Shown one piece after another: positions 3 to 11,853 of a stretch of 11,853 bases of DNA. Position numbers and translations under genes: made by a program. The notes under the pieces are model-generated. The model did no database searches, had not been told where the DNA came from, and saw only the letters and a list, made by a program, of their open reading frames with translations. How positions within the stretch are numbered: position 1 is the first letter of the stretch; each line of letters opens with the position of its first letter. The DNA is from Erythrobacter sp. UBA3075 (GTDB lineage: Bacteria; Pseudomonadota; Alphaproteobacteria; Sphingomonadales; Sphingomonadaceae): NCBI GenBank assembly GCA_002367375.1, contig DFBR01000179.1, positions 452 to 12,304 of the forward strand. Reading direction: 5' to 3'.

Positions 3-203
3 GTTCGTGAGTTTTCCAGCGCTTCCCTGCGGAAGATGCCTGCCTTGAAGCACATCATGCAGGTTCGTTTCGGCGGAACCCGTTTCGATTGCCCCAAGTG
101 CGGTACCGTCGAGAGCACCTTCCACAAGCTGCAAAAGCGCCGCACCTACGTCTGCGCCGCCTGCAGTCACCATGTGAACCCCACCGCTGGCACCAGCCCC
201 TGA
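3..203 (+). pseudogene. IS1595-family transposase, N-terminal fragment
   Basis: The reading frame is open from the window edge to a TGA at 201-203. It encodes the zinc-ribbon start of an IS1595/ISXO2-like transposase: FGGTRFDCPKCG, then TFHKL, then a second Cys pair (CAAC) and HVNPTAGT. The paired CxxC knuckles followed by PTAGT and normally IFHKS are characteristic of this family's N-terminal domain. Similarity stops at PTAGT (about 194), where the sequence switches to an IS3-family OrfB in another frame. The whole DDE catalytic domain is missing, so the piece cannot be active. Its own start lies beyond the left edge. The family call rests on remembered motifs; no database search was made. 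Confidence 0.72.
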
Positions 204-429
204 AGAACCGCATCCTGCTGGAGAACTACTTCCTTCCCGGTGATCTGGAAACGCAGGTCGAGGCGCTCGTCAAACACTACAACCATCAGCGCTATCACGA
301 GAGCCTGAAAAACGTCACACCCGCGACGCCTACTTCGGAAGGGCGGAAGCCATCATCAAACAGCGAGAAAGGATCATACGTAGAACCATCGAGCAACGGC
401 GCTTGCAACACCGCAAGCTTGCCGCCTAA
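185..429 (+). pseudogene. IS3-family transposase OrfB, C-terminal remnant with frameshift
   Basis: From 188 the frame reads WHQPLKNRILLENYFLPGDLE and then HYNHQRYHESLKNVTPA, the standard tail of an IS3-family rve integrase after the last catalytic Glu region. At about 321-325 one base seems to be lost. The family sequence would continue as PADAYFGRAEAIIKQRERI, but the open frame leaves it, and the expected residues (DAYFGRAEAIIKQ, ending RRLQHRKLAA) resume in the next frame from 325 to the TAA at 427-429. Only about 80 codons of a roughly 270-codon gene remain, and the DDE core is absent. Its 5' edge is fused to the IS1595 fragment. It is the same kind of IS3 element as the OrfA piece at 7868, on the same strand. 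Confidence 0.78.
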
Positions 430-505
430 TATCAACCAACCAAATGGGCCCAAACACTCACCTGCCTTAGAGCGCCAGCTGTCTCAAATTATCTGACGAC
501 AGACA
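430..505 (+). mobile_element. Probable right-hand end of the IS3-family element
   Basis: This short non-coding tail follows the OrfB stop. IS3-family elements normally carry a short tail after OrfB that finishes in a terminal inverted repeat ending in CA. Here a plausible end is the GACGACAGACA stretch ending near 505. The matching left terminus is not present next to it, so the exact boundary is an inference. No target duplication can be shown. Confidence 0.3.
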
Positions 506-886: not shown

Positions 887-2020
887 TCACACCATTGTCG
901 TGATCGTCTGCCGGAACCGCCTGAGAGCGACAATAAAGAACGCAGCGCCTATCGCAGCGATGGCCAGGAACTGCGGCCATACGACGTCGAACCCGGCACC
1001 GCGGTAGAGAATTGCCTGGGCCATCTTCACAAAATGCGTGGTGGGCGCTGCAAGCATTACGGTCTGGACGAATTCGGGCATGCTCTCGCGCGGGGTCACC
1101 CCGCCTGACAGCATTTGCAGCGGCAGAAGGACCAACATCAGGAGCAGGCCGAACTGGGGCATGGAACGCGCGATCGTGCCCATGAATACACCCATGGAAG
1201 TTGTGGCGAACAGGTGCAGCCCGGCCCCCGTCAGAAAAAGCAGGGCAGAGCCTTCGACAGGAACCGCAAGAACGCCTTCAACCACTATTTTCAGGGCGAA
1301 GGCACAGGCCATCAGCACTACAAGGCTCATCGCCCACACCTTACTCGCCATGATTTCAAAAGGCGTGATCGGCATCACCAGCAGATGCTCGATAGTGCCA
1401 TGTTCGCGCTCGCGGATAAGGGCCGCGCCGGTCAGGATGATGGAAAGCATGGTAACATTGTTGATGATAGCCATAAGCGAGCCGAACCAGCTCTGGGCCA
1501 GGGTGGGATTGAACCGCTGGCGCACGGCGAGCTCGATCGGCGGCGGCGGCCCGGCGCGCGTACCGCGGGTGAATTCAGCCACCTCGGCCTGAACGATCTG
1601 CTGGATATAACCGCCCCCACTAAATGCCTGACTCATACGCGTTGCATCAACGTTGAGCTGTATCGTCGGGCGGCGCCCGGCCAGCACGTCGCGCTGGAAA
1701 CCGGGCGGGATATCGAGCGCGAACGTAAAGTGGCCTGCATCCATGCCCCGGTCCACCTCGTCCAGGTCGACCATTGCCGGGCTGACGAAATGGGGTGGGT
1801 AGAACGCGCTCACGATGCGGCGGGAGAGCTGTGACTGATCTTCATCGGTGATGGCGATGGGGGCTTTATACAGCGTTTCGGGCATGGCCGTGCCCGACAC
1901 ATAGATGCTGAACGAGAAGGCGTAGATGATCAGGATCATCATCATCGGGTCGCGCCATAGGCTGCGCAATTCCTTGATTCCAAGGCGATAGATATTGGCA
2001 GTTTTCGCGACTCGGTCCAT
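887..2020 (-). CDS. yhhJ: YhhJ-type ABC-2 permease (inner-membrane exporter subunit)
   Basis: This 377-residue inner-membrane permease of the ABC-2 superfamily closely resembles E. coli YhhJ (about 374 residues). Shared stretches include APIAI.D.DQSQLS near 53-66, NVDATRMSQAF at 123-133, AIINN at 184-188, the cytoplasmic loop REREHGTIEHLLVMPITPFEIM at about 203-224, and MLSGG.TPRESMP at 303-315. It has one N-terminal membrane segment (about 26-43), a large periplasmic domain (about 45-175), and five further helices (about 179-200, 228-249, 257-280, 289-306, 349-367). The loop after helix 2 is the expected contact with the ATPase domains. It starts 3 bp after the rbbA stop, with AGGAG nine bases upstream of the ATG. 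It should pair with the permease half of RbbA to form the translocation path. It is the last gene of the exporter operon. Confidence 0.93.
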   Translation of the reverse strand: MDRVAKTANIYRLGIKELRSLWRDPMMMILIIYAFSFSIYVSGTAMPETLYKAPIAITDEDQSQLSRRIVSAFYPPHFVSPAMVDLDEVDRGMDAGHFTFALDIPPGFQRDVLAGRRPTIQLNVDATRMSQAFSGGGYIQQIVQAEVAEFTRGTRAGPPPPIELAVRQRFNPTLAQSWFGSLMAIINNVTMLSIILTGAALIREREHGTIEHLLVMPITPFEIMASKVWAMSLVVLMACAFALKIVVEGVLAVPVEGSALLFLTGAGLHLFATTSMGVFMGTIARSMPQFGLLLMLVLLPLQMLSGGVTPRESMPEFVQTVMLAAPTTHFVKMAQAILYRGAGFDVVWPQFLAIAAIGAAFFIVALRRFRQTITTMV

Positions 2021-2023
2021 GGT

Positions 2024-4786
2024 TCACCGCTCCTGCTTGCGTAGAAATACAGCGGATATGCCGAGAATGACGGGATAGGTAACGAACAGGATCAGCAAAG
2101 GGCCCCATAGGTCAGACATCCCCAGCCCTTTGGAAAAAACGCCCCGACAGATGGTGACAAACCATGTTGCCGGAAACACGGTGCCAATCACCGCGCCTGC
2201 CCCTTCCAGCGAGGAAATCGGATCAATCAGTCCGGAAAATTCCACCGTGGGCAGGATGGTGCCGATGGCGGTTGCGAACATCGCGGCGATCTGACTGCGC
2301 AGGAACACCGAAAATAGCAGACCCAGCGCGGTCGACGACAAGACATATAGAAGCGCGCCAAGTGTCATAACCGCGAAACTGCCGGTAATCGGAACGCCGA
2401 AGGCGGCCACGGCCAAGAAGACCAACAGCAGATAATTGATCATGGCCAGAGCCACATAGGGGAGCTGCTTGCCTAGCAGAAATTCCACCCGGCTGATTGG
2501 CGTGACATAAAAATTGACGATCGACCCCAGCTCTTTTTCCCGCACCACGCTGAGCGCTGTCAGCATGGCCGGAAACAGCATGAGAAGGATGGGAATCACC
2601 GCCGGCGCGATAGCCACCAGGCTCTCGACATCGGGATTGTAGCGATAGCGAAGGGCAATATCGACCGGTCCGGCCTGAGGTCTGACACCCAGTTCGCGCA
2701 CCGCCATATCGCCCAGCCATTGGGCGTGGAGAGCTTCAACATAGCCTTGGGTCGTTTCCGCACGCATTGGCATTGCACCATCCACCCACACGCCGATCTC
2801 GGTTGAACTGCCACGCCGCAGATTGCGCGCGAAATTCGGTGGTATCTCGATCGCCACACTCAGCTCGCCAGAACGCATCCTGCGGTCTAGCTGGGCATAA
2901 TCGGTGATCGGTGGGTGTTCGATAAAATAGCGCGACCCGGTCATATTCAACGCATAATTCTGGCTGGTTGTCGTTCCATCCCGGTCAAGCACTGCAAAGG
3001 TCAGATCCTCTACATCCATGCTGATACCATAGCCCATGATGAACAGGAGTATGACGCTGCCGACCATTGCCAGCGTGGCGCGGATCGGGTCTCGCCGCAA
3101 TTCCAGCCCCTCGCGCCAGGCATAGCTCATCATTCGCCGGTAGGTCAGCCAGCCGCCCGCCGGTCCTGCGTGATTCGCACTGGTGGTCAGCGATTCAGGC
3201 ACCGCCTGCGAAGGGTCAGAATCAAGCTGAGCCGCACCGTCCTCGCTGGCCTCTTTCAGGTAAGCAATAAAGGCTTCTTCCAGATTATCGCCGTTGCCGC
3301 GGCCTTCGGCGATGGCCTGCGGTGTGTCGCTGACCAGCACCTGCCCCGCATGCATCAGCGAAATGCGGTCGCAGCGTTCCGCCTCGTTCATGAAGTGGGT
3401 AGAAATAAAGATCGTCACCTTGTCGCGCCGCGACAGGTCGATCATCATCTGCCAGAACTGGTCCCGCGCGATCGGGTCCACCCCGGAGGTCGGCTCGTCA
3501 AGGATCAGGATTTCCGGCTTGTGAATCATGGCAACAGCCAGACTGAGCCGCTGGCGCTGCCCCAGAGGTAGCGCGGCGGGCAGCTTTTCCATGATATCAG
3601 TGAGATCGAAACGCTGCGCCATCTCCATCACCCGATCAGGGATGTCGTCGGGGGGAAGGTGGAATAACCGGGCGTGCAACTCAAGATTCTGGCGCACGGT
3701 CAGCTCGGAATAGAGCGAGAAGGCCTGGCTCATATAGCCGACCCGGCGACGGATCTCCATGTCGTTATGACCGATTGATTTTCCGAACAGCCAAGCCTGC
3801 CCCTCGCTGGCCTGCAGAAGGCCAGTCAGCATCTTCATGGTCGTCGATTTTCCGCATCCGTTGGAGCCGAGAAATCCGAAAATCTCCCCCCTTTCGATCT
3901 CGAAATCGACGTGATCGACTGCAGTGAAATCGCCAAACCGCATGGTCAGGCCTTTCGCCTCGATCGCGATCTGCGCATCGCTGCCATCGCTGCGCGGCGG
4001 AATCGTAACGGGCCTGTAACCTTCCCGGCGGTCTTGCGGCAATAAGGCAATAAAGGCCTTCTCCAGCGCAGTTTCGCCGGTCCGCTCATAGAGATCCTTT
4101 GGCGTTCCATTGGCCAAAATCCGCCCCGCATCCATCGCGATCAGCCAGTCGAAGCGCGCTGCCTCTTCCATATAGGCCGTGGCGACGAGCACGCTCATAT
4201 CAGGGCGCCGCGTTCGGATACGTTCGATCAATTCCCAGAACTGCGCCCTTGAAAGCGGGTCCAGCCCAGTGGTGGGTTCGTCCAGCAGAAGAAAATCGGG
4301 GTCATGGATCAGCGCGCAGCATAGCCCGAGCTTTTGCTTCATCCCCCCTGAAAGCTTGCCTGCAGGGCGGTTGCGGAACGGGTCCAGCCCGGTGCTTTTG
4401 GTCAGTTCGGCGATACGGCGTTCCCGCTCTGCCGAAGGCTGACCAAACAATCGTCCGAAAAAGTCCAGATTTTCCTCTACCGACAGCGTGGGATAAAGGT
4501 TTTTCCCAAGACCCTGCGGCATATAGGCAATGCGCGGGCAGACGGCCGCGCGGTGCTGGCGGTCCGCCATATCGCCGCCCAGCACCTCGACCTCTCCCTG
4601 CTGAATAACGCGGGCCCCCGCAAGGAGAGAAAACAGGTTGGATTTGCCCACCCCGTCCGGCCCGATCATCGCCACCATCCGCCTGGCGGGTATGGTGAGA
4701 TCCACCTGCTCCAACGCAGCGACATCGCCATAATGCAGGCTTACCCCTGCAAGACGGGCAACCGGATCAGTGCGTGGGCTTGTCAT
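2024..4786 (-). CDS. rbbA: RbbA: double ABC ATPase fused to ABC-2 permease
   Basis: This 920-residue protein matches E. coli RbbA (about 911 residues) in length and domain order. ABC domain 1 has Walker A GPDGVGKS (42-49), signature LSGGM (145-149) and Walker B ending DE (169-170). ABC domain 2 has Walker [10 protein letters not shown] (307-315), a divergent signature LPLGQRQ (406-412), Walker B ending DE (430-431) and H-loop His464. After a linker rich in A, S and P comes an ABC-2 permease: a helix at about 574-590, a periplasmic domain at about 595-715, and a helical bundle at about 722-914 with [10 protein letters not shown] (747-756) and FSGLIDP (850-856). E. coli RbbA was described as a ribosome-associated ATPase, but its location here argues for an exporter engine. 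The start at 4786 overlaps the yhiI stop as ATGA, as in the upstream gene pair. An in-frame ATG at 4810 exists but would overlap yhiI by 28 bp. In domain 1 the H-loop His is Ala204. Confidence 0.94.
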
Positions 4787-5856
4787 TGCGGGACATTGAC
4801 CGCCAGCCAATCAGGCCATGGGGTATCCTCGTCCGCGCGGACATAGGCGACCCCCGGAAGGCCGGTTTTGACCTGCGACAGATTGCGCTGGAGCAGTTCA
4901 GGATCGATCTGCGCCCGCACCCTGAACATCAGCTTCTGCCTTTCATCCGCGGTTTCCACTGTCCTTGGTGTAAACTGGGCGACATCGGCAACGAAGCTGA
5001 CCCTGGCGGGCACAACCATTTCGGGCGCCGCATCCAGCACGAGGCGGACCTCTGTGCCTAGAGCGACCCTGCCTGCGACCGTTTCGGGCAGGAACAGTGT
5101 CATGTAGACATCACCCAGATTGACGAGATTGAGCACCCGTCCGCCGCCGCCGATCACCTCGCCGGGCTGCGCAACGAGATATTGCACCCGCCCATCAGTG
5201 GGGGAGCGCAGAGTACTGTCCCCGATTTCAGCATCGATGCGCGCCACCGTTGCACGCGCGGCATCGACCTGCGCACGGGCTGCGCCGATCTGGCTTCGGG
5301 CCGTTTCAATGGCGGCGTCTACCGCGGAGACCTGCGCCTGTGCAGCTTCGACCGCTGCCGCCGCGCTTTCGGCCTGCGCGGCATTGTCGTCGCGTTCCTG
5401 CATGGAGATAGCGCCTTCATCAGCGAGTGTTGTCGATCGGGCCAGCCGCCCTTGTGCAGCGACCAGCTCTGCCTCGCGCTGGCGAACCATGGCTGTGACT
5501 GCAGCCCGATTGCTCACTTGCTGAGCGACCTGGCTTTGGGCTATCTGGATACCATTGACAGCCTGCGCCAGTCGGGCTTCGGCTTCTGCCTTTTGCGCCA
5601 GCAGCGTTTCGGCATCCATGCGGGCAACGATCTGATCCGCCTCGACAAATTCACCCTCACCCACCAGGATCGCGTCGACCCGGCCAGGCATCTTGGCCGA
5701 TACGTCTATTTCGACCGCTTCGATGCGCCCGTTGCCACTGATGATTCCGTCGGGCAATTCGTCTCCATCAAGCATCTGCCAGCCGAGGTAGAGAGCAACC
5801 AGCACGGCAGCCGCAATCGCGCCCCTGATCAGCCAGGTCTTGCGGGATGATGTCAT
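4783..5856 (-). CDS. yhiI: YhiI-type HlyD-family membrane-fusion protein
   Basis: This 357-residue periplasmic adaptor should link the RbbA/YhhJ inner-membrane transporter to the outer-membrane channel. One N-terminal membrane anchor (about 9-25) is followed by the first half of a biotinyl/lipoyl-like domain (about 40-80, with GNGRIEA and [14 protein letters not shown]). Next comes a long Ala/Gln/Glu-rich alpha-helical hairpin (about 83-210), then the second lipoyl half with [17 protein letters not shown] (218-234), and a beta-barrel region containing VYMTLFLPE and the YhiI-typical FTPRTVET and [12 protein letters not shown]. Similarity to E. coli YhiI runs almost end to end. Its ATG overlaps the stop of the outer-membrane gene as ATGA, with GGAG ten bases upstream, and its own stop overlaps rbbA the same way. 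Translational coupling is therefore likely. Confidence 0.93.
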
Positions 5857-7376
5857 TGCGATTGCTCTCCAGTCTGTTGCGAAGGTGTGTGCTCATCCGG
5901 ATTGTCTGCCGGGAATCCGCCGCCAAGCGCGGTGTAAAGCCCGACCCCTGCCGCCTGATAGGCACGCTGCAATCGCACCAGCACCTGCTCGGCTTCAAAA
6001 AGATCGCGCTGGGCATCGAGCACTTCGAGATAGGCCGAACGGCCATTGTCGAAGCGCAGCTGCGCCAATCGCGCACGTTCGCGCAAAGCACTGAGCGCAA
6101 CGCTTGTCGTCGCGATCTGTCTTGCCAGTTGCTCACGCTGGACAAGCGCGTTGGACACATCACGGAAAGCAAGCTGGACCGTCTGTTCGTAATTTGCCAC
6201 GGCCTCCACCTGCCGGGCACTCGCAAGATCGAGATTCGCCGCCAGCTGCCCGCCATGGAACAGGGGCAGTGTAAGGCTGGGGGTAAAGCTCCATGTCTCA
6301 CTGCCTGAACCGAACAGGCCGTCCAGTTCGGTACTGGCGGTGCCAAATGCCCCTGTCAGACGGATGTTGGGAAAGAATGCGGCACGGGCCGCACCAATAT
6401 CAGCGTTTGCGGCGCGCAATTGGTATTCCGCCGCCATGATGTCCGGCCTTTGCACAAGCAGATCGGACGGCAGGCCCGCAGGCAGCGTGATGGCAGGCTG
6501 AGCCTCTACCAGATCCAGAGGGGGCAGTACGGCCTCCACTGGTCGTCCGACAAGCACGGTAAGTGCGTTGTGATTGATGTGCCGCTCTTGCTCCAGCGCT
6601 TCATAGGTGCCCTGCGCCTGCGCCAACAGGGTCTGGGCCTGAGTTACTTCCAACATCGAACCGGCCCCCACTTCATAGCGACGGCGCATTATTCGCAGCG
6701 CCTCTTCACGCGTTGTAATGGTGCGCGATGCCAACGCCAGCCGGCCGGTATATTCGCGTTCCTGCAGATAGAAACTGGCGACCTGCGCGATCAGGCCAGT
6801 GGCCACTGCGCGCTTCGCTTCCTCACTTGCCAAATATCGGTTGCGGGCGGCTTCGTTGAGATTTTGCAGGCGGCCCCAGAAGTCGATTTCCCAACCTCCA
6901 CTTACCTGGGCGGTAATCTGCTCCACATCGTAACGCAGCGGCCCTGTTCCAGGCAATTCGATCAGCGACCTTCCCCTCGTCCCGATGCCGATCGCATCCA
7001 GGCTGGGATAAAGGCCTGCCCCTTGAATGCGCCAAGCCGCCCGCCCCTGTGCCACGCGAGCTGCGGCGATGTGTATGTCGCGATTTTCTTCCAGCGCGGT
7101 CGAAATGAGCGCGCGCAAATACTCATCCTGAATGAAATCCTGCCAACCGATCTGAGCAATTGATTGCCCTGCCGGGGTCGAATGAAAGTAGCTTTCTGGA
7201 ACAAGAGCAACCGATGGGGTGGATGGCGGAGCCAACGAGCAGCTCGACAACAGAAGCGATGGGGCTGCAACAACAATTGGGACGAACAATCGGCACCGCT
7301 TTGGCGGAGGTGGGGCCAGCCGTTCCGAGCAATAGCTCTCCAGACTGCCACCCTTATCGGCTCGGAAACTTGCCAT
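5853..7376 (-). CDS. NodT-family outer-membrane efflux lipoprotein (TolC-like)
   Basis: This 507-residue outer-membrane factor forms the exit duct of the exporter. A basic, Pro-rich N-terminus leads into a hydrophobic stretch and a lipobox ending LSSC (Cys46), so lipidation is expected. Two OEP repeats follow. Repeat 1 includes LRALISTALEENRDI and RVAQGRAAWRIQGAGLYPSL (about 88-125). Repeat 2 includes ANADIGAARAAFFPNIRLTG and PLFHGGQLAANLDLA, and ends with the typical YLEVLDAQRDLFEAEQ and LYTALGGG. NodT-family proteins most often serve RND pumps; here the gene leads an ABC operon and overlaps yhiI by four bases. The 45 residues before Cys46 are long for a signal peptide. No later ATG lies before the lipobox, but a TTG at residue 30 would give a more normal signal, so the true start is uncertain. 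The Shine-Dalgarno before the ATG is weak. The substrate is unknown. Confidence 0.9.
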   Translation of the reverse strand: MASFRADKGGSLESYCSERLAPPPPKRCRLFVPIVVAAPSLLLSSCSLAPPSTPSVALVPESYFHSTPAGQSIAQIGWQDFIQDEYLRALISTALEENRDIHIAAARVAQGRAAWRIQGAGLYPSLDAIGIGTRGRSLIELPGTGPLRYDVEQITAQVSGGWEIDFWGRLQNLNEAARNRYLASEEAKRAVATGLIAQVASFYLQEREYTGRLALASRTITTREEALRIMRRRYEVGAGSMLEVTQAQTLLAQAQGTYEALEQERHINHNALTVLVGRPVEAVLPPLDLVEAQPAITLPAGLPSDLLVQRPDIMAAEYQLRAANADIGAARAAFFPNIRLTGAFGTASTELDGLFGSGSETWSFTPSLTLPLFHGGQLAANLDLASARQVEAVANYEQTVQLAFRDVSNALVQREQLARQIATTSVALSALRERARLAQLRFDNGRSAYLEVLDAQRDLFEAEQVLVRLQRAYQAAGVGLYTALGGGFPADNPDEHTPSQQTGEQSQ

Positions 7377-7489: not shown

Positions 7490-7799
7490 CTAGGTGGATC
7501 GAACCAAGGCCCTGTCTTCATCCATTCTGTTCCGCAGAATCCCCAACAAACTCTGCGTTCCCGCGACGATCAGCGGACCGAGCACGAAGCCATGCGCTCC
7601 GAAAACGACAATTCCACCGACGATCACTAGAATAAGGCGGCATGGAATGAAACACCAGCCAACGACCCACGAGAATTGGGTAGATGATGTTATCAATCAG
7701 CCCGACAATAAAGGCACCGAGAAACCCCTGCAGGGCAGAGACAGCGGCAGTACCGTATACCGAAGCGAAGATGGCTTTCTCCATCCGATCAGTCAGCGC
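7490..7799 (-). pseudogene. AI-2E-family transporter remnant (deleted and frameshifted)
   Basis: Reading right to left, the frame entering at 7799 gives RMEKAIFASVYGTAAVSALQG, the conserved last third of an AI-2E/PerM-family membrane protein. This jumps directly to AFIVGLIDNIIYPILVG, so about 50-60 family residues (the WWLGLP and VPVLGA helices) are missing. Near 7650-7680 the frame breaks. The expected C-terminus continues in a second frame as LILVIVGGIVVFGAHGFVLGP, followed by LLGILRNRMDED, to a TAG at 7490-7492. A stop (7800-7802) bounds the right side, and the N-terminal two thirds are gone. Three lesions (5' truncation, internal deletion, frameshift) make it a clear pseudogene. It points towards the exporter operon, and its tail lies just upstream of the candidate promoter. 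Confidence 0.8.
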
Positions 7800-8200: not shown

Positions 8201-8449
8201 CTACCCGGGACCGTTTTCCAACAGCCACTGCACCGCGCCGCCAACGGTCACAAAGCGGGCGGCTTCTGCATCGGGAATGTCGATGCCGGTCCGCTGGTGC
8301 AGCGCGGCGATCAGGTTGAAGATGTCCATAGAGTCGAGATCCAGCGCATCGCGCACATCCTCGTCATCGCCGATGGTCACCGGAGCCACATCAGGAGCGA
8401 TCGCCTCGATTTCTTCGATCACCAACGCGCGGATTTCAGGCATGTTCAC
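8201..8449 (-). CDS. Acyl carrier protein encoded in the dehydrogenase operon
   Basis: This small acidic four-helix carrier has 82 residues from GTG, or 80 from the ATG at 8443. The phosphopantetheine attachment motif is DSMD, with Ser40 (GTG numbering) at the start of helix 2, preceded by the usual acidic stretch IGDDEDVRDALDL. Helix 3 and 4 signatures (GIDIPDAEAARFVTVGGAV) are conserved in spacing. The GTG overlaps the E2 stop as GTGA, matching the ATGA couplings in this operon. GGAGG lies 4 bases before the GTG and 10 before the ATG, so both starts are possible. A housekeeping AcpP would normally sit between fabG and fabF; this one is the last surviving gene of an acyl-CoA-producing operon. 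It may receive acyl groups, serve a lost downstream enzyme, or supply octanoyl-ACP for lipoylating E2. Confidence 0.88.
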   Translation of the reverse strand: MNMPEIRALVIEEIEAIAPDVAPVTIGDDEDVRDALDLDSMDIFNLIAALHQRTGIDIPDAEAARFVTVGGAVQWLLENGPG

Positions 8450-9615
8450 AGGTCCTCCGGATGGGCTAGCAATTCTTCGATATGGCGCAGGAGCAAAGCC
8501 CCTCTGTGTCCGTCATTGGCCCGGTGATCGCCTGCCAGACTGACATTCATAACCGGGCGTATCGCCAGCGCGTCGTCGCTGGCCCACGGATGGGTGCGCG
8601 GGCTGCCAAATCCAATAATCGCCACCTGGGGTGGGTAGATGATCGGCCAGAGGCTATCGACACCGCGCTCTCCCAAACTGGAAATCGTCACTGTTGGATC
8701 GCCTATTTCGGAAGATCGCAGCTCACCGCGCCGGGTCCGGGCAACAAGATCGCGCAGCTTCTTCATCAGATCGGGCAGCGAATGTTCGGCGGTATTCCGA
8801 ATAGCCGGTGCCGCCAGCCCGCCACCGCGAATCGAGATGGCGCTTCCAACATGCACCGCTTCGCTGGGCTGATAGCCATCCGCTTTGTAGAAGCCGTTGA
8901 AGTCAGGAAAGTCGCCGACCGCAACAGCCGCCGCTTTCAGGAGAACAACACCAAGAAGGAGCCGCTCGGCAGGCGCGCGGGCCTCGTTATATTTGGACAG
9001 CCAGGACAGCGTGGGTGCCATGTCGATGCGATGCATCAGGTAATAATGCGGTATATCGCGCTTTGAGCGGCCCATGGCGGCGGCGATAGCGCGGCGCATG
9101 GCGGACGGATCGACCCCGTTGGAGTGCGCGGTGGCAGGCTGAACGCCTGCACTTTCAACATCGGACAGCTGAATTGCCCCGTCCGGACCCGTCCCCGTTA
9201 TGGCGGCGAGATCAATGCCCCGATCCGCCGCAAGTGTGCGGGCGGCAGGAGAAGCGCGCAGTTCAGCAGCAATACGCGGCGGCCTTTTTTGTTCAGGAGG
9301 CGACACTGCAGCCGCTGCAGCAGCAGGCGGCTTGTCTGTGTCGATACCTGCGTCGTCGGAAACATGTCCCTCAGCATGGCCATCGCCGGCTATCCGGGCC
9401 AGCGCCGTTCCCACCGGCACGCTTTGCCCCGGATCGACCAGCAAAGCCTCGATCTCGCCCGCTTCGAAAACCTCGACCTCGATCGCGCCCTTATCGGTTT
9501 CGACCACCGCGATGATGTCGCCATGGTCTACACGCTCGCCGGGCTGTTTGAGCCATTCTACAAGCGTCCCGGCCTCCATGTCAGCGCCCAGCGAGGGCAT
9601 GGTAAACACGCCCAT
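8446..9615 (-). CDS. Dihydrolipoyl acyltransferase (E2) of a 2-oxoacid/acetoin dehydrogenase
   Basis: This 389-residue E2 forms the core of the complex and moves the acyl group from its lipoyl arm to CoA. It has a single lipoyl domain (2-76) with Lys42 in ETDKGAIEVEV as the lipoylation site, and an Ala-rich linker (about 95-108). A peripheral subunit-binding domain follows (about 114-152, with ASPAARTLAADRGIDLAAITGTG). The catalytic domain (about 170-389) includes ISSLGERGVDSLWPIIYPPQ and the active-site motif DHRANDG (His364, Asp368). All key residues are present. The start at 9615 places the lipoyl domain at the N-terminus, two bases after the E1 beta stop. An upstream in-frame ATG (9810) would add 65 residues that only mirror E1 beta in another frame. 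Substrate choice between pyruvate, acetoin and a branched oxoacid cannot be settled from sequence. Confidence 0.93.
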   Translation of the reverse strand: MGVFTMPSLGADMEAGTLVEWLKQPGERVDHGDIIAVVETDKGAIEVEVFEAGEIEALLVDPGQSVPVGTALARIAGDGHAEGHVSDDAGIDTDKPPAAAAAAVSPPEQKRPPRIAAELRASPAARTLAADRGIDLAAITGTGPDGAIQLSDVESAGVQPATAHSNGVDPSAMRRAIAAAMGRSKRDIPHYYLMHRIDMAPTLSWLSKYNEARAPAERLLLGVVLLKAAAVAVGDFPDFNGFYKADGYQPSEAVHVGSAISIRGGGLAAPAIRNTAEHSLPDLMKKLRDLVARTRRGELRSSEIGDPTVTISSLGERGVDSLWPIIYPPQVAIIGFGSPRTHPWASDDALAIRPVMNVSLAGDHRANDGHRGALLLRHIEELLAHPEDL

Positions 9616-9617
9616 CG

Positions 9618-10592
9618 TCAGCGCCCCAGCACTGTCCGCGCGGCCGTAACGATCTTCTCCGCGCTTGGCAAAGCTGCCTCTTCCAGATGCGCGGCATAAG
9701 GGATCGGCACTTCCTCGCTGCATACCCGGGCGAGCGGTGCGTCGAGCGTCCAGAATCCCTGCTCGACAATTCGGGCCATGATCTCGGCTGACAGGCTGCC
9801 CGAACGCCACCCCTCATCCACAATAACGCAGCGGCGTGTCTTTGCGAGCGTGGCGAGGATCGCGTCGTCGTCCAGAGGTCGTAGGACACGCAAGTCCAGC
9901 ACTTCGGCATCAATCCCATCGCCTGCCAACTGCCCGGCCGCAGCCAGCGTCTTGCCCAGTGACCCGCCATAGGTGATCAGGCTAATATCGCTGCCTTCCC
10001 GGCGGATCGCGGCATGGTCGATATCGACGCTGCCCGGATCGCCCGCCGGTCCGGTCTCGTTATACAGCAGCGCATTTTCGAAAATCAGGACAGGGTCCGG
10101 GTCGGCGAGCGCCGGGCCGAGCATTCCGCCAGCATCTTCGACCGTGGCAGGTGCCAGCACGCGAAGGCCGGGGATGTGGGCATACCAACCCTCCAGACTG
10201 TGCGAGTGCTGCGCAGCAAGCTGCCTGCCCCCGCCGGTCGCCATGCGAATGACAATCGGCACCGTCACCTGCCCGCCCGACATGTGCCGCATGGTCGCTG
10301 CATTGTTCATGATCTGGTCGAGCGCCAGCAACGAGAAATTGCAGGTCATAATCTCGACGATCGGGCGCACCCCGTTCATCGCCGCGCCGATCCCGGCACC
10401 CGTAAACGCGCTTTCGGAAAGCGGCGTATCGCGTATCCGCTGCGGGCCGAATTCCTCCAGCAGTCCCTTGGTGACCGCATAACAGCCACCGTAATGGCCC
10501 ACATCCTCGCCCATCAGGAAAACCCGTTCGTCCTCCTGCATCGCTGTACGGATCGCGCCGCGCATCGCCTCGCGGTAGGTAAGATCGGTCAT
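9618..10592 (-). CDS. E1 beta subunit of a pyruvate/acetoin-type dehydrogenase
   Basis: This 324-residue transketolase-like subunit builds the thiamine-diphosphate active site together with E1 alpha. It contains [12 protein letters not shown] (26-36), [19 protein letters not shown] (56-74) with the Glu60 that activates the cofactor, and [18 protein letters not shown] (126-143) with His129. Its C-terminal domain has [10 protein letters not shown] and VDEGW. The ATG at 10592 overlaps the E1 alpha stop as ATGA, with GGAG eight bases before it. A longer in-frame version from 10643 would add 17 unconserved residues. The protein begins directly with the catalytic fold. Housekeeping PdhB of many alphaproteobacteria, including Zymomonas, carries an extra N-terminal lipoyl domain that is missing here. 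This suggests a second, acetoin-type or specialised complex. Confidence 0.93.
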
Positions 10593-11581
10593 GGCCGCCG
10601 CTCCGCCCCGACATGGCGGGTGAGATCGGCGACAGGTTCCCACGTCCCGTCTTGCGCAAAAGCCACCGCCTGATCAATTTCGCGAGCGATTTCAGCTTCG
10701 ATCTCGGCCACGTCGCTCTCGCGAAGTTCGCCAGCTTCGAACGCCCATGTCTTGAACCGCCTGATCGGTCCGCGCTCTTTCCACGCCTCAACCTCCTCCT
10801 TTGCCCGGTAGAGCTGCGGATCGTACATTGAGTGAGCGCGAAATCGATACGTCCGGCATTCGAGAAAGCGCGGACGGCCCGTTTCGTGGATGGCCGCAAC
10901 AGCGCGGCGCGCGGCCACTTCTACGGCGACCACGTCCATCCCGTCGACGGCTTCGGATGCGATGTCGTAACAAGCAGCCTTGGCGCTGATATCGGTCTGC
11001 GATTCGGACAGGTCCAGCGCTGTGCCCATGGCATAGAGGTTGTTCTCGCACACAAACAGCACCGGCAATTGCCACAGCGCCGCCAGATTCAGAGCCTCGT
11101 GGAACTCGCCTTCAGCCACCGCGCCTTCGCCGAAGAAGCAAGTGGTGATCCGGGACCGGTCGGCCAATGTGTCCGCCAATGCGAGCCCGGCGGCGATGGG
11201 CAATCCGCCAGCCACGATGGCATTGCCGCCGTAAAAACGATGCTCTGTATCGAACAAATGCATCGACCCGCCGCGGCCACCGCTGCAGCCTTCCTGCTTG
11301 CCGAACATTTCGGCCATGATGGTATCGGCAGGCACCCCTTTCATCAGGGCGTGCCCGTGTTCGCGGTAGGTCGCCACCACCGCATCTTCGGGTGCGAGTG
11401 CTTGCATAACCCCGACAGCCACGGCTTCTTCGCCAATATAGAGATGCAGGAAGCCCCTGATCTTCTCCTGCGTATAGAGTTCGGCGCATTTCTCCTCGAA
11501 CCGGCGGATCCGCAGCATTTGATGCAGCAATGTGCGGCAATGCTCGCGCGAGAGCCGTACTTTGGCGGGATTGCCGCTCAT
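10589..11581 (-). CDS. E1 alpha subunit of a pyruvate/acetoin-type dehydrogenase (PdhA/AcoA family)
   Basis: This 330-residue thiamine-diphosphate-binding subunit, with E1 beta, decarboxylates a 2-oxoacid (or cleaves acetoin) and reductively acylates the E2 lipoyl group. Family landmarks are [14 protein letters not shown] (44-57), [11 protein letters not shown] (72-82), [11 protein letters not shown] (101-111), and the cofactor motif GEG (151-153) ending ENN (179-181). The loop [20 protein letters not shown] (245-264) carries the active-site His250. All catalytic positions look intact, and the length is normal for the family. The ATG at 11581 overlaps the ligase stop as ATGA, and GGAG lies eight bases upstream. 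Pyruvate is the default guess, acetoin the main alternative. Confidence 0.93.
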
Positions 11582-11853
11582 GGCCTTGTCTCCAGCGTAG
11601 AAATATCGCCTTCAGGCAGGCCGATTTCGCGCGCTTTGAGCAGACGGCGCATGATCTTGCCCGACCGCGTGCGGGGCAGGTCGTCGCGAATCTCGATGGC
11701 TCGGGGAGCCATCACTGCGCCCAGTTTCCGGCGCACATGCCCCATCAGTTCCTTGCGAAGTTCATCGGAAGGGTCATGCCCGTGGTGGAGGGTGACGTAA
11801 GCCTTCACCACCTCGCCCACGCGCTCGTCCGGCAGGCCGATAACTGCTGCCTC
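11578..11853 (-). CDS. Acetyl-CoA-synthetase-like AMP-forming ligase, C-terminal part
   Basis: Only the last 91 residues lie in the window; the gene continues past the right edge. They form the small C-terminal lid domain of the acyl/acetyl-CoA synthetase family: [20 protein letters not shown], then [18 protein letters not shown] with the invariant catalytic lysine in SGK, the residue commonly acetylated to switch off Acs. The final [10 protein letters not shown] resembles the acetyl-CoA synthetase terminus (LGDTSTL) more than long-chain ligases, so acetate or propionate is the likelier substrate. Its stop overlaps the E1 alpha start, which makes it the upstream partner in the operon. The N-terminal domain and substrate pocket cannot be seen. 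Confidence 0.88.

Follow-up and report, generated by a model that had tools for sequence, protein, structure and literature searches.

Loading of carrier proteins by E1/E2 enzymes resembling pyruvate dehydrogenase has so far been proposed for a few natural-product pathways, as far as the portions of the literature open to us go. Quinocarcin is the product of QncN, QncL and QncM, and NapB, NapD and NapC form a similar set. In the accessible passages of PMC6335953, SclQ1-4 of scleric acid biosynthesis comprises an acyl carrier protein (ACP), E1-alpha, E1-beta and E2, with QncN, QncL and QncM as homologues. For pepteridine, the accessible part of PMC5384830 has its authors suggest that a carrier arm could be primed in place of coenzyme A (CoA), with E3 supplied by the host, and a carrier serine mutant showed product dependence; earlier work cited there is that of Craig and Brady (2011) and Peng (2012). 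Here we describe a five-gene cassette (ligase, E1-alpha, E1-beta, E2 and a dedicated ACP) in a stretch of 11,853 nucleotides from Erythrobacter sp. UBA3075, hereafter the window, which covers bases 452-12304 of the 12304-base contig DFBR01000179.1. The cassette is a real, widespread variant of the E1/E2-plus-carrier logic, and we give an even chance to its being a two-entry acetyl-loading module built around the carrier. No earlier description of it was found in the literature searched (titles and abstract openings, with subscription papers mostly outside).

The cassette lies on the minus strand and reads from 11853 to 8201; the start codons below were inferred from junctions and relatives:

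11578..11853, minus strand, C-terminal part (91 residues) of an AMP-forming acetate--CoA ligase-type protein (PF13193; best NCBIfam match NF003313)
10589..11581, minus strand, E1-alpha of pyruvate dehydrogenase (PDH) type, 330 residues, with the motif TYREHG (TIGR03182, 444.5 bits, cut-off 393.85)
9618..10592, minus strand, E1-beta, 324 residues (NF006667, 398.4 bits, cut-off 321; PF02779, PF02780)
8446..9615, minus strand, E2, 389 residues, with a single lipoyl domain (Lys42), E3-binding and catalytic domains (His364, Asp368) (PF00364, PF02817, PF00198)
8201..8449, minus strand, dedicated ACP, 82 residues, GTG start overlapping the E2 stop, Ser40 in DSMD (PF00550)

The initial annotation, made from the window, had described these genes as one coupled operon, and the junctions read from the DNA bear this out: ATGA at 11578-11581 (ligase/E1-alpha), ATGA at 10589-10592 (E1-alpha/E1-beta), TGA-CG-ATG with a 2-bp gap at 9616-9617 (E1-beta/E2) and GTGA at 8446-8449 (E2/ACP). 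Lys42 of E2 and Ser40 of the ACP are likewise as it described them. The ligase that it placed in the operon is present, but not as a complete gene: the right edge of the window coincides with the contig end (the source genome is 79% complete), and the C-terminal domain alone is visible. Its argument from overlaps to a fixed stoichiometry is weak. Four-base overlaps are common in operons generally, and the weight therefore rests on conservation and not on overlap. Chance or an annotation artefact is ruled out by five genes in constant order at dozens of loci. A further E1-alpha/E1-beta pair exists in the same genome (contig C102, 44% and 51% identical), which makes the cassette a second set.

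Copies of the cassette are spread over Alpha-, Beta- and Gammaproteobacteria and Actinomycetota. In an ACP search with a threshold of E 1e-8, matches came from 18 of 385 class, 12 of 398 phylum and 10 of 249 family genomes, samples that overlap and include the window's own genome and a variant (G365). The distribution is patchy, with relatives on plasmids too, which fits horizontal spread. With E1-alpha as query, 17 of the 385 class genomes (18 places) matched at E 1e-95, and the ACP is present at all 16 places with readable downstream DNA, the other two (L137, L138) being cut by contig ends. Among plasmids, 51 records matched the E2 query; 28 of the best 40 of these 51, which were reviewed, reach at least 41% identity. 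Ligase, E1-alpha, E1-beta and ACP are all found in the 18 of these 28 that were opened, and the annotation of the remaining 10 names an acyl carrier protein under the match in eight and is silent in two. The 18 come from Methylocystis, Sinorhizobium, Ciceribacter, Azospirillum, Leisingera, Tropicibacter, Cupriavidus, Burkholderia, Paraburkholderia, Photobacterium, Rhodococcus, Streptomyces and Embleya, and the opened records annotate the cassette plainly as acsA-pdhA plus acyl carrier protein. In contrast, four of four opened stretches around E2 relatives at 35% identity or less hold no ACP (L139, L197, L198 and L206, of 12 such among the matches listed). The initial annotation had named, as grounds against itself, relatives in which the ACP is missing or serves an unrelated downstream pathway; the neighbourhoods did not bear this out. 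From its presence at 16/16 readable E1-alpha-anchored places and 18/18 opened plasmid relatives at 41% identity or more, and at 0/4 of those at 35% or less, the ACP is, as far as sampled, a property of this E2 subfamily.

Gene coupling is conserved as well. The 4-bp overlap of E2 and ACP occurs in 42 of the 46 loci having both genes (a set that includes the remnant L037 described below and leaves out L069), and that of ligase and E1-alpha in 41 of 45. E1-alpha and E1-beta overlap in 35/37 loci and form a single open reading frame in eight further ones (L065, L077, L095, L096, L098, L110, L132, L135). Pairwise distances of ACP and E2 correlate at 0.71 (44 loci; Mantel 0/2000) and those of E2 and ligase at 0.73, within a range of 0.58-0.76 over all cassette gene pairs; the eight fused loci were left in this comparison, which inflates the E1-alpha/E1-beta value (0.76) and not that of ACP and E2.

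By its sequence, the cassette ACP is a specialised carrier. The window ACP has its nearest named relatives in Erythrobacter and Aurantiacibacter, which very probably puts its source in Erythrobacteraceae. It scores 41.9 bits against TIGR00517 (cut-off 70.45) and falls under the cut-offs of all 10 NCBIfam ACP models listed. All 49 ACP rows retain the carrier serine, including four unusual loci (L037, L069, L076, L194); the L194 ACP has no Pfam match at 1e-3 and was assigned from its 62% identity to that of L076. At AcpP position 41, 45/49 cassette ACPs have Asn, whereas all 27 housekeeping AcpP rows have Glu (one locus is counted twice among the 27, L079 being identical to L009 on the same contig; L079, a housekeeping-like ACP, is excluded from the cassette counts). 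Positions 47-49 are Glu in nearly all AcpP and mostly His or Ser, variable, and Arg in the cassette ACPs, and the mean charge of helix II is -0.2 in the cassette against -5.0 in AcpP. In AcpP these are positions at which fatty-acid enzymes make contact. A tree of 75 rows places the 48 cassette ACPs on one side of a fully supported branch (100/100), built on few columns and with AcpP of near relatives as the comparison set. A housekeeping AcpP was thus ruled out, given the score below cut-off and the different helix II. Separately, a second locus in uncultured Erythrobacter 4-1445 (L037:9606-12917) holds the last 131 residues of an E2 and an ACP in which DSMD has become GSMD, followed by a 902-residue molybdopterin oxidoreductase with iron-sulfur domains. 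The same isolate has an intact cassette (L035), and the second locus is probably a decaying remnant.

The initial annotation had left the choice between a 2-oxoacid and an acetoin dehydrogenase. Sequence points to the former in its pyruvate form, E1-alpha and E1-beta both scoring above the PDH-type cut-offs, and the acetoin dehydrogenase operon is ruled out, the E2 reaching 74.4 bits against a cut-off of 307 for the acetoin E2 model NF011457. The best solved relatives of E1-alpha are human PDH E1-alpha, and TYR[ED]HG is found at 43/46 loci. Pfam finds lipoyl, E3-binding and catalytic domains in 42 of 42 E2 rows (an alignment without L065, L039, L075 and L108, among others); an apparent loss of the E3-binding domain, hinted at by a narrow regular expression, was an artefact. 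This domain is absent from the Pfam lists of the long proteins P0122, P0123, P0125, P0128 and P0129. In the catalytic motif DHRxxDG, the equivalent of E. coli AceF His603 is kept in 45/45 cassette E2s and that of Asp607 in 43/45; at the position of Ser551, 24 rows have Ser and the other 21 have Thr. The two departures at the aspartate are His in L130 (a Sinorhizobium fredii plasmid) and Gly in L132 (a Leisingera caerulea plasmid), both loci retaining the ACP. Several E2 positions are near-fixed in the cassette and absent from the few (four) reference E2s, Arg263 and Gly241 (full-length numbering) occurring in 45/45 cassette rows and 0/4 references in an alignment from which the remnant L037 was left out. 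On its residues and domains, the cassette E2 looks functional.

As the initial annotation noted, the operon holds no E3. An LpdA-like gene lies near the cassette in only one of 52 stretches of differing length (L102, ~2.7 kb past the ACP on the opposite strand), and E3-like pieces are found elsewhere in the window's own genome (contigs C73 and C183); the E3 is presumably borrowed from the host. According to the passages of PMC8421416 available to us, the active channel of the E. coli enzyme is reached from outside by the lipoyl arm and from within the hollow core by CoA; the entrance of the core is ~30-40 angstroms wide. An ACP would need access to the CoA side.

The ligase is part of the unit. 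Its full-length relatives have 583-587 residues (L035, L036, L038); that of L036 scores 872.2 against the acetate--CoA ligase cut-off of 729, the variant of L076 scores 636.2, below it, and the window copy is truncated by the contig end. As a query, the L036 ligase matched 19 of the 385 class genomes (20 places) at E 1e-140, the match in G197 being cut by a contig end. Two metagenomic proteins of 1618 and 1685 residues (P0122, P0123) carry ligase, E1-alpha, E1-beta and E2 in one chain. Two genomes of different genera in one family (G365 and G188) have the ligase followed by the ACP without E1 or E2, and the ACP can thus be partnered with the ligase where E2 is missing. Beside both pairs lie a membrane-bound O-acyltransferase (MBOAT), a conserved partner gene and a GNAT-domain ADP-forming acyl-CoA synthetase, which share 59-62% identity from one genome to the other:

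L076:7373-14758 and L194:5843-14586, ligase-ACP pair loci; the MBOAT of L076 is PF03062 (Pfam run on L076)

Stress genes are frequent neighbours. In 9/31 genomes the cassette has Hsp20 genes at a distance of 25 kb or less, and 11 of 101 Hsp20 matches are near it where ~1.3 would be expected by length. Universal stress protein (USP) genes are near it in at least 7/31 genomes by a hand count among the matches listed (222 matches in all; ~2.8 expected in such a stretch). Of the 10 annotated plasmid regions bearing the cassette, nine hold one or the other, L135 being the exception. We set 20 cassette regions against 20 control regions of the same genomes, each lying ~200 kb off (BLAST threshold 1e-8); neighbour families were named by eye first, and Pfam confirmed one representative each of Hsp20, USP, phosphoribosyltransferase, PAS kinase, response regulator and P-ATPase. 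Cassette regions exceed controls for Hsp20 (4 vs 0), USP (3 vs 0), phosphoribosyltransferase (4 vs 0), P-ATPase (3 vs 0), CBS (2 vs 0), SDR (6 vs 2), ADH (2 vs 1), ABC (6 vs 4) and PAS kinase (7 vs 5); a FixJ-like regulator is found in 5 vs 5. The stress-gene link is real but partial.

Genes of lipid type occur near single cassettes. At L131, KAS III-type genes are found ~8-10 kb upstream of the ligase, and the cassette of L133 is closely preceded by two AMP-binding proteins. One of these (L133:8131-10947, Cupriavidus sp. USMAHM13 plasmid) is a 939-residue protein with PP-binding, AMP-binding and acyltransferase domains, possibly a lipid-making partner at that locus only. A complete nonribosomal peptide synthetase (NRPS) or polyketide synthase (PKS) is annotated in none of the 10 annotated plasmid regions. 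The low-oxygen-activated (lxa) locus of Burkholderia cenocepacia was considered and no link was made; the terms "pyruvate dehydrogenase" and "acyl carrier" are absent from the accessible passages of PMC3759415, as are "pyruvate dehydrogenase" and "acyl carrier protein" from those of PMC6127331.

Downstream of the cassette (887-7376, minus strand) lie a NodT-type outer-membrane protein, an HlyD-type adaptor, an RbbA-like ABC fusion (1547.7 bits, cut-off 1050) and a second ABC-2 permease; efflux genes are also near the cassette in L129, L135 and L168. Overlapping fragments at 7490-7784 (minus strand) resemble by eye the end of a membrane transporter and are probably a broken gene, of which the piece 7518-7784 matches no Pfam or NCBIfam model. 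Short open reading frame pieces at 3-496 (plus strand) resemble, also by eye, fragments of insertion-sequence transposase and integrase.

It is reasonable to hypothesize the following sequence of events for a two-entry acetyl-loading module. E1 would decarboxylate pyruvate and acetylate the lipoyl arm of E2, as its family does, and the E2 catalytic domain would transfer the acetyl to the adjacent holo-ACP, at its phosphopantetheine thiol, in place of CoA or in competition with it. The AMP-forming ligase would activate acetate and load the carrier directly or via acetyl-CoA, and a housekeeping E3 would dock on the conserved E3-binding domain and reoxidise the reduced lipoyl arm. Acetyl-ACP could then be a protected acetyl donor for some later step, perhaps, to judge from the neighbours, mainly under stress. 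We favour this reading because the ACP is tied to the E2 subfamily (16/16, 18/18, 0/4), because the E2/ACP overlap (42/46), the serine (49/49) and the correlated ACP-E2 distances go with it, because helix II is altered while the E2 machinery and the cassette-specific positions are kept, and because ligase-E1-E2 chains, ligase-ACP pairs and the pepteridine, Scl and Qnc precedents exist. Three roles for the ACP had been offered in the initial annotation, and direct transfer from E2 to ACP, by sequence the best supported, is probably the most likely of them. Supply of a starter acyl-ACP is possible, with lipid-type genes in L131 and L133, but no starter-using pathway recurs beside the cassette.

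Several observations weigh against the acetyl-loading module. The ligase is of the acetate--CoA ligase family, so that CoA may be the acceptor. The cassette E2 retains ordinary catalytic residues, and the acceptor, like the substrates, the acyl group and the sink, is one that we infer from sequence; at L130 and L132 the E2 lacks the catalytic aspartate. A search of proteins of ~366-1164 residues with short words from a single ACP found no natural fusion with the cassette ACP, and the Pfam list of the long ligase-E1-E2 chains has no carrier domain. Around the cassette, no acyl-consuming gene recurs, the stress-gene neighbours are enriched yet not universal, and the equal counts for the FixJ-like regulator leave a regulator link unsupported.

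A possible, if doubtful, alternative is that the cassette is a second PDH plus an acetate ligase, both making acetyl-CoA, with the ACP as a structural or regulatory subunit or as a later taker of acetyl from acetyl-CoA. The L036 ligase above the acetate--CoA ligase cut-off, E1-alpha above the PDH cut-off and an E2 with standard catalytic residues and an E3-binding domain all agree with it, but no ACP is seen at the four related E1/E2 or E2 loci that were opened outside the cassette, and a purely structural ACP would not need the serine kept in 49/49 rows. Distinctly unlikely, in our judgement, is another donor for E1/E2, either a ketose phosphate as proposed for Qnc and Scl or another 2-oxoacid, giving glycolyl-ACP or a similar unit. 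The gene set does equal SclQ1-4 (PMC6335953, accessible passages) and the distribution is patchy and partly on plasmids; however, E1-alpha passes the PDH model cut-off and carries TYR[ED]HG at 43/46 loci, the partner ligase is of acetate type, and the 10 annotated plasmid regions lack a complete NRPS or PKS, though L133 has its carrier-adenylation-acyltransferase protein upstream.

Two alternatives remain. In one, the ligase is the main partner of the ACP and E1/E2 an extra supply line, the carrier delivering acetyl to a membrane O-acyltransferase, much as in the DltA-DltC-DltB system. G365 and G188 speak for it, with ligase and ACP but no E1/E2, both beside the related MBOAT and the conserved partner gene. 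We still hold it very unlikely: these are two genomes of one family only, their MBOAT genes are convergent and outside the ligase-ACP operon, and no related MBOAT occurs in the stretches around other cassettes. The other is the role in which the initial annotation had the ACP provide octanoyl-ACP for lipoylating Lys42. The E2 does require lipoylation, and lipoylation draws on octanoyl-ACP, but helix II lacks the acidic residues found in AcpP, no ACP of this kind is seen at the lipoyl-E2 loci opened outside the cassette, and the ligase-ACP pair occurs without an adjoining lipoyl protein in two genomes, all of which makes this role extremely improbable.

The acetyl-loading module can be extended into a bolder reading, which we put forward tentatively and think rather unlikely as a whole. 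The cassette would be a cross-phylum, horizontally transferred acetyl-ACP synthase whose carrier the neutralised helix II would shield from fatty-acid synthesis, providing a CoA-independent, protein-bound acetyl pool in stressed or dormant cells for envelope O-acetylation or other acetylation, with the ligase-ACP-MBOAT loci as a Dlt-like reduced form.

The ligase-ACP pairing, the wide spread and the frequent stress-gene neighbours are not evident from the window alone. Here the E1/E2-plus-carrier logic takes the form of a compact module in several classes of two phyla, on chromosomes and plasmids. If acetyl-ACP is made, it would be a second acetyl currency outside secondary metabolism, and the acetyl donor of some membrane O-acetyltransferases, which to our knowledge is not settled, would become testable. 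Even with CoA as the acceptor, the conserved ACP still needs an explanation.

Compared with known systems, the cassette shares E1-alpha, E1-beta and an E2 with lipoyl, E3-binding and catalytic domains with a textbook PDH operon (Sphingobium L139); that operon has lpdA after E2, whereas the cassette has a ligase and an ACP and no E3. The acetoin dehydrogenase (aco) operon has related E1-alpha, E1-beta and E2, but the cassette E2 is far below the acetoin E2 cut-off. The variant without E1/E2 resembles DltA-DltC-DltB in having an AMP-forming ligase, a carrier and an MBOAT near each other, and differs from it by its acetate-type ligase, its convergent transcription and its restriction to two loci. 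The pepteridine E1-like protein and Plu2796 (PMC5384830, accessible part) are, like the cassette, an E1/E2 without its own E3; in Plu2796 (E2-carrier-condensation), however, the carrier is fused to E2 and an NRPS condensation domain, while the cassette has a separate ACP and a ligase in the operon. With Scl and Qnc the likeness is one of gene content: E1-alpha, E1-beta, E2 and a small ACP, with an acyl unit passing from a thiamine diphosphate/lipoyl system to the carrier (PMC6335953, accessible passages). They sit in natural-product clusters, with a glycolic acid unit proposed from a ketose phosphate, whereas the cassette combines a PDH-type E1-alpha with a ligase of acetate type, often near stress genes, and in the 10 annotated plasmid regions it stands outside any recognisable assembly-line cluster, L131 and L133 being exceptions to weigh. 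The trait of carrier-loading E1/E2 systems is nevertheless there, a dedicated carrier with an intact serine tied to E1/E2, and by this analogy the cassette may work like the Scl, Qnc and pepteridine systems by function.

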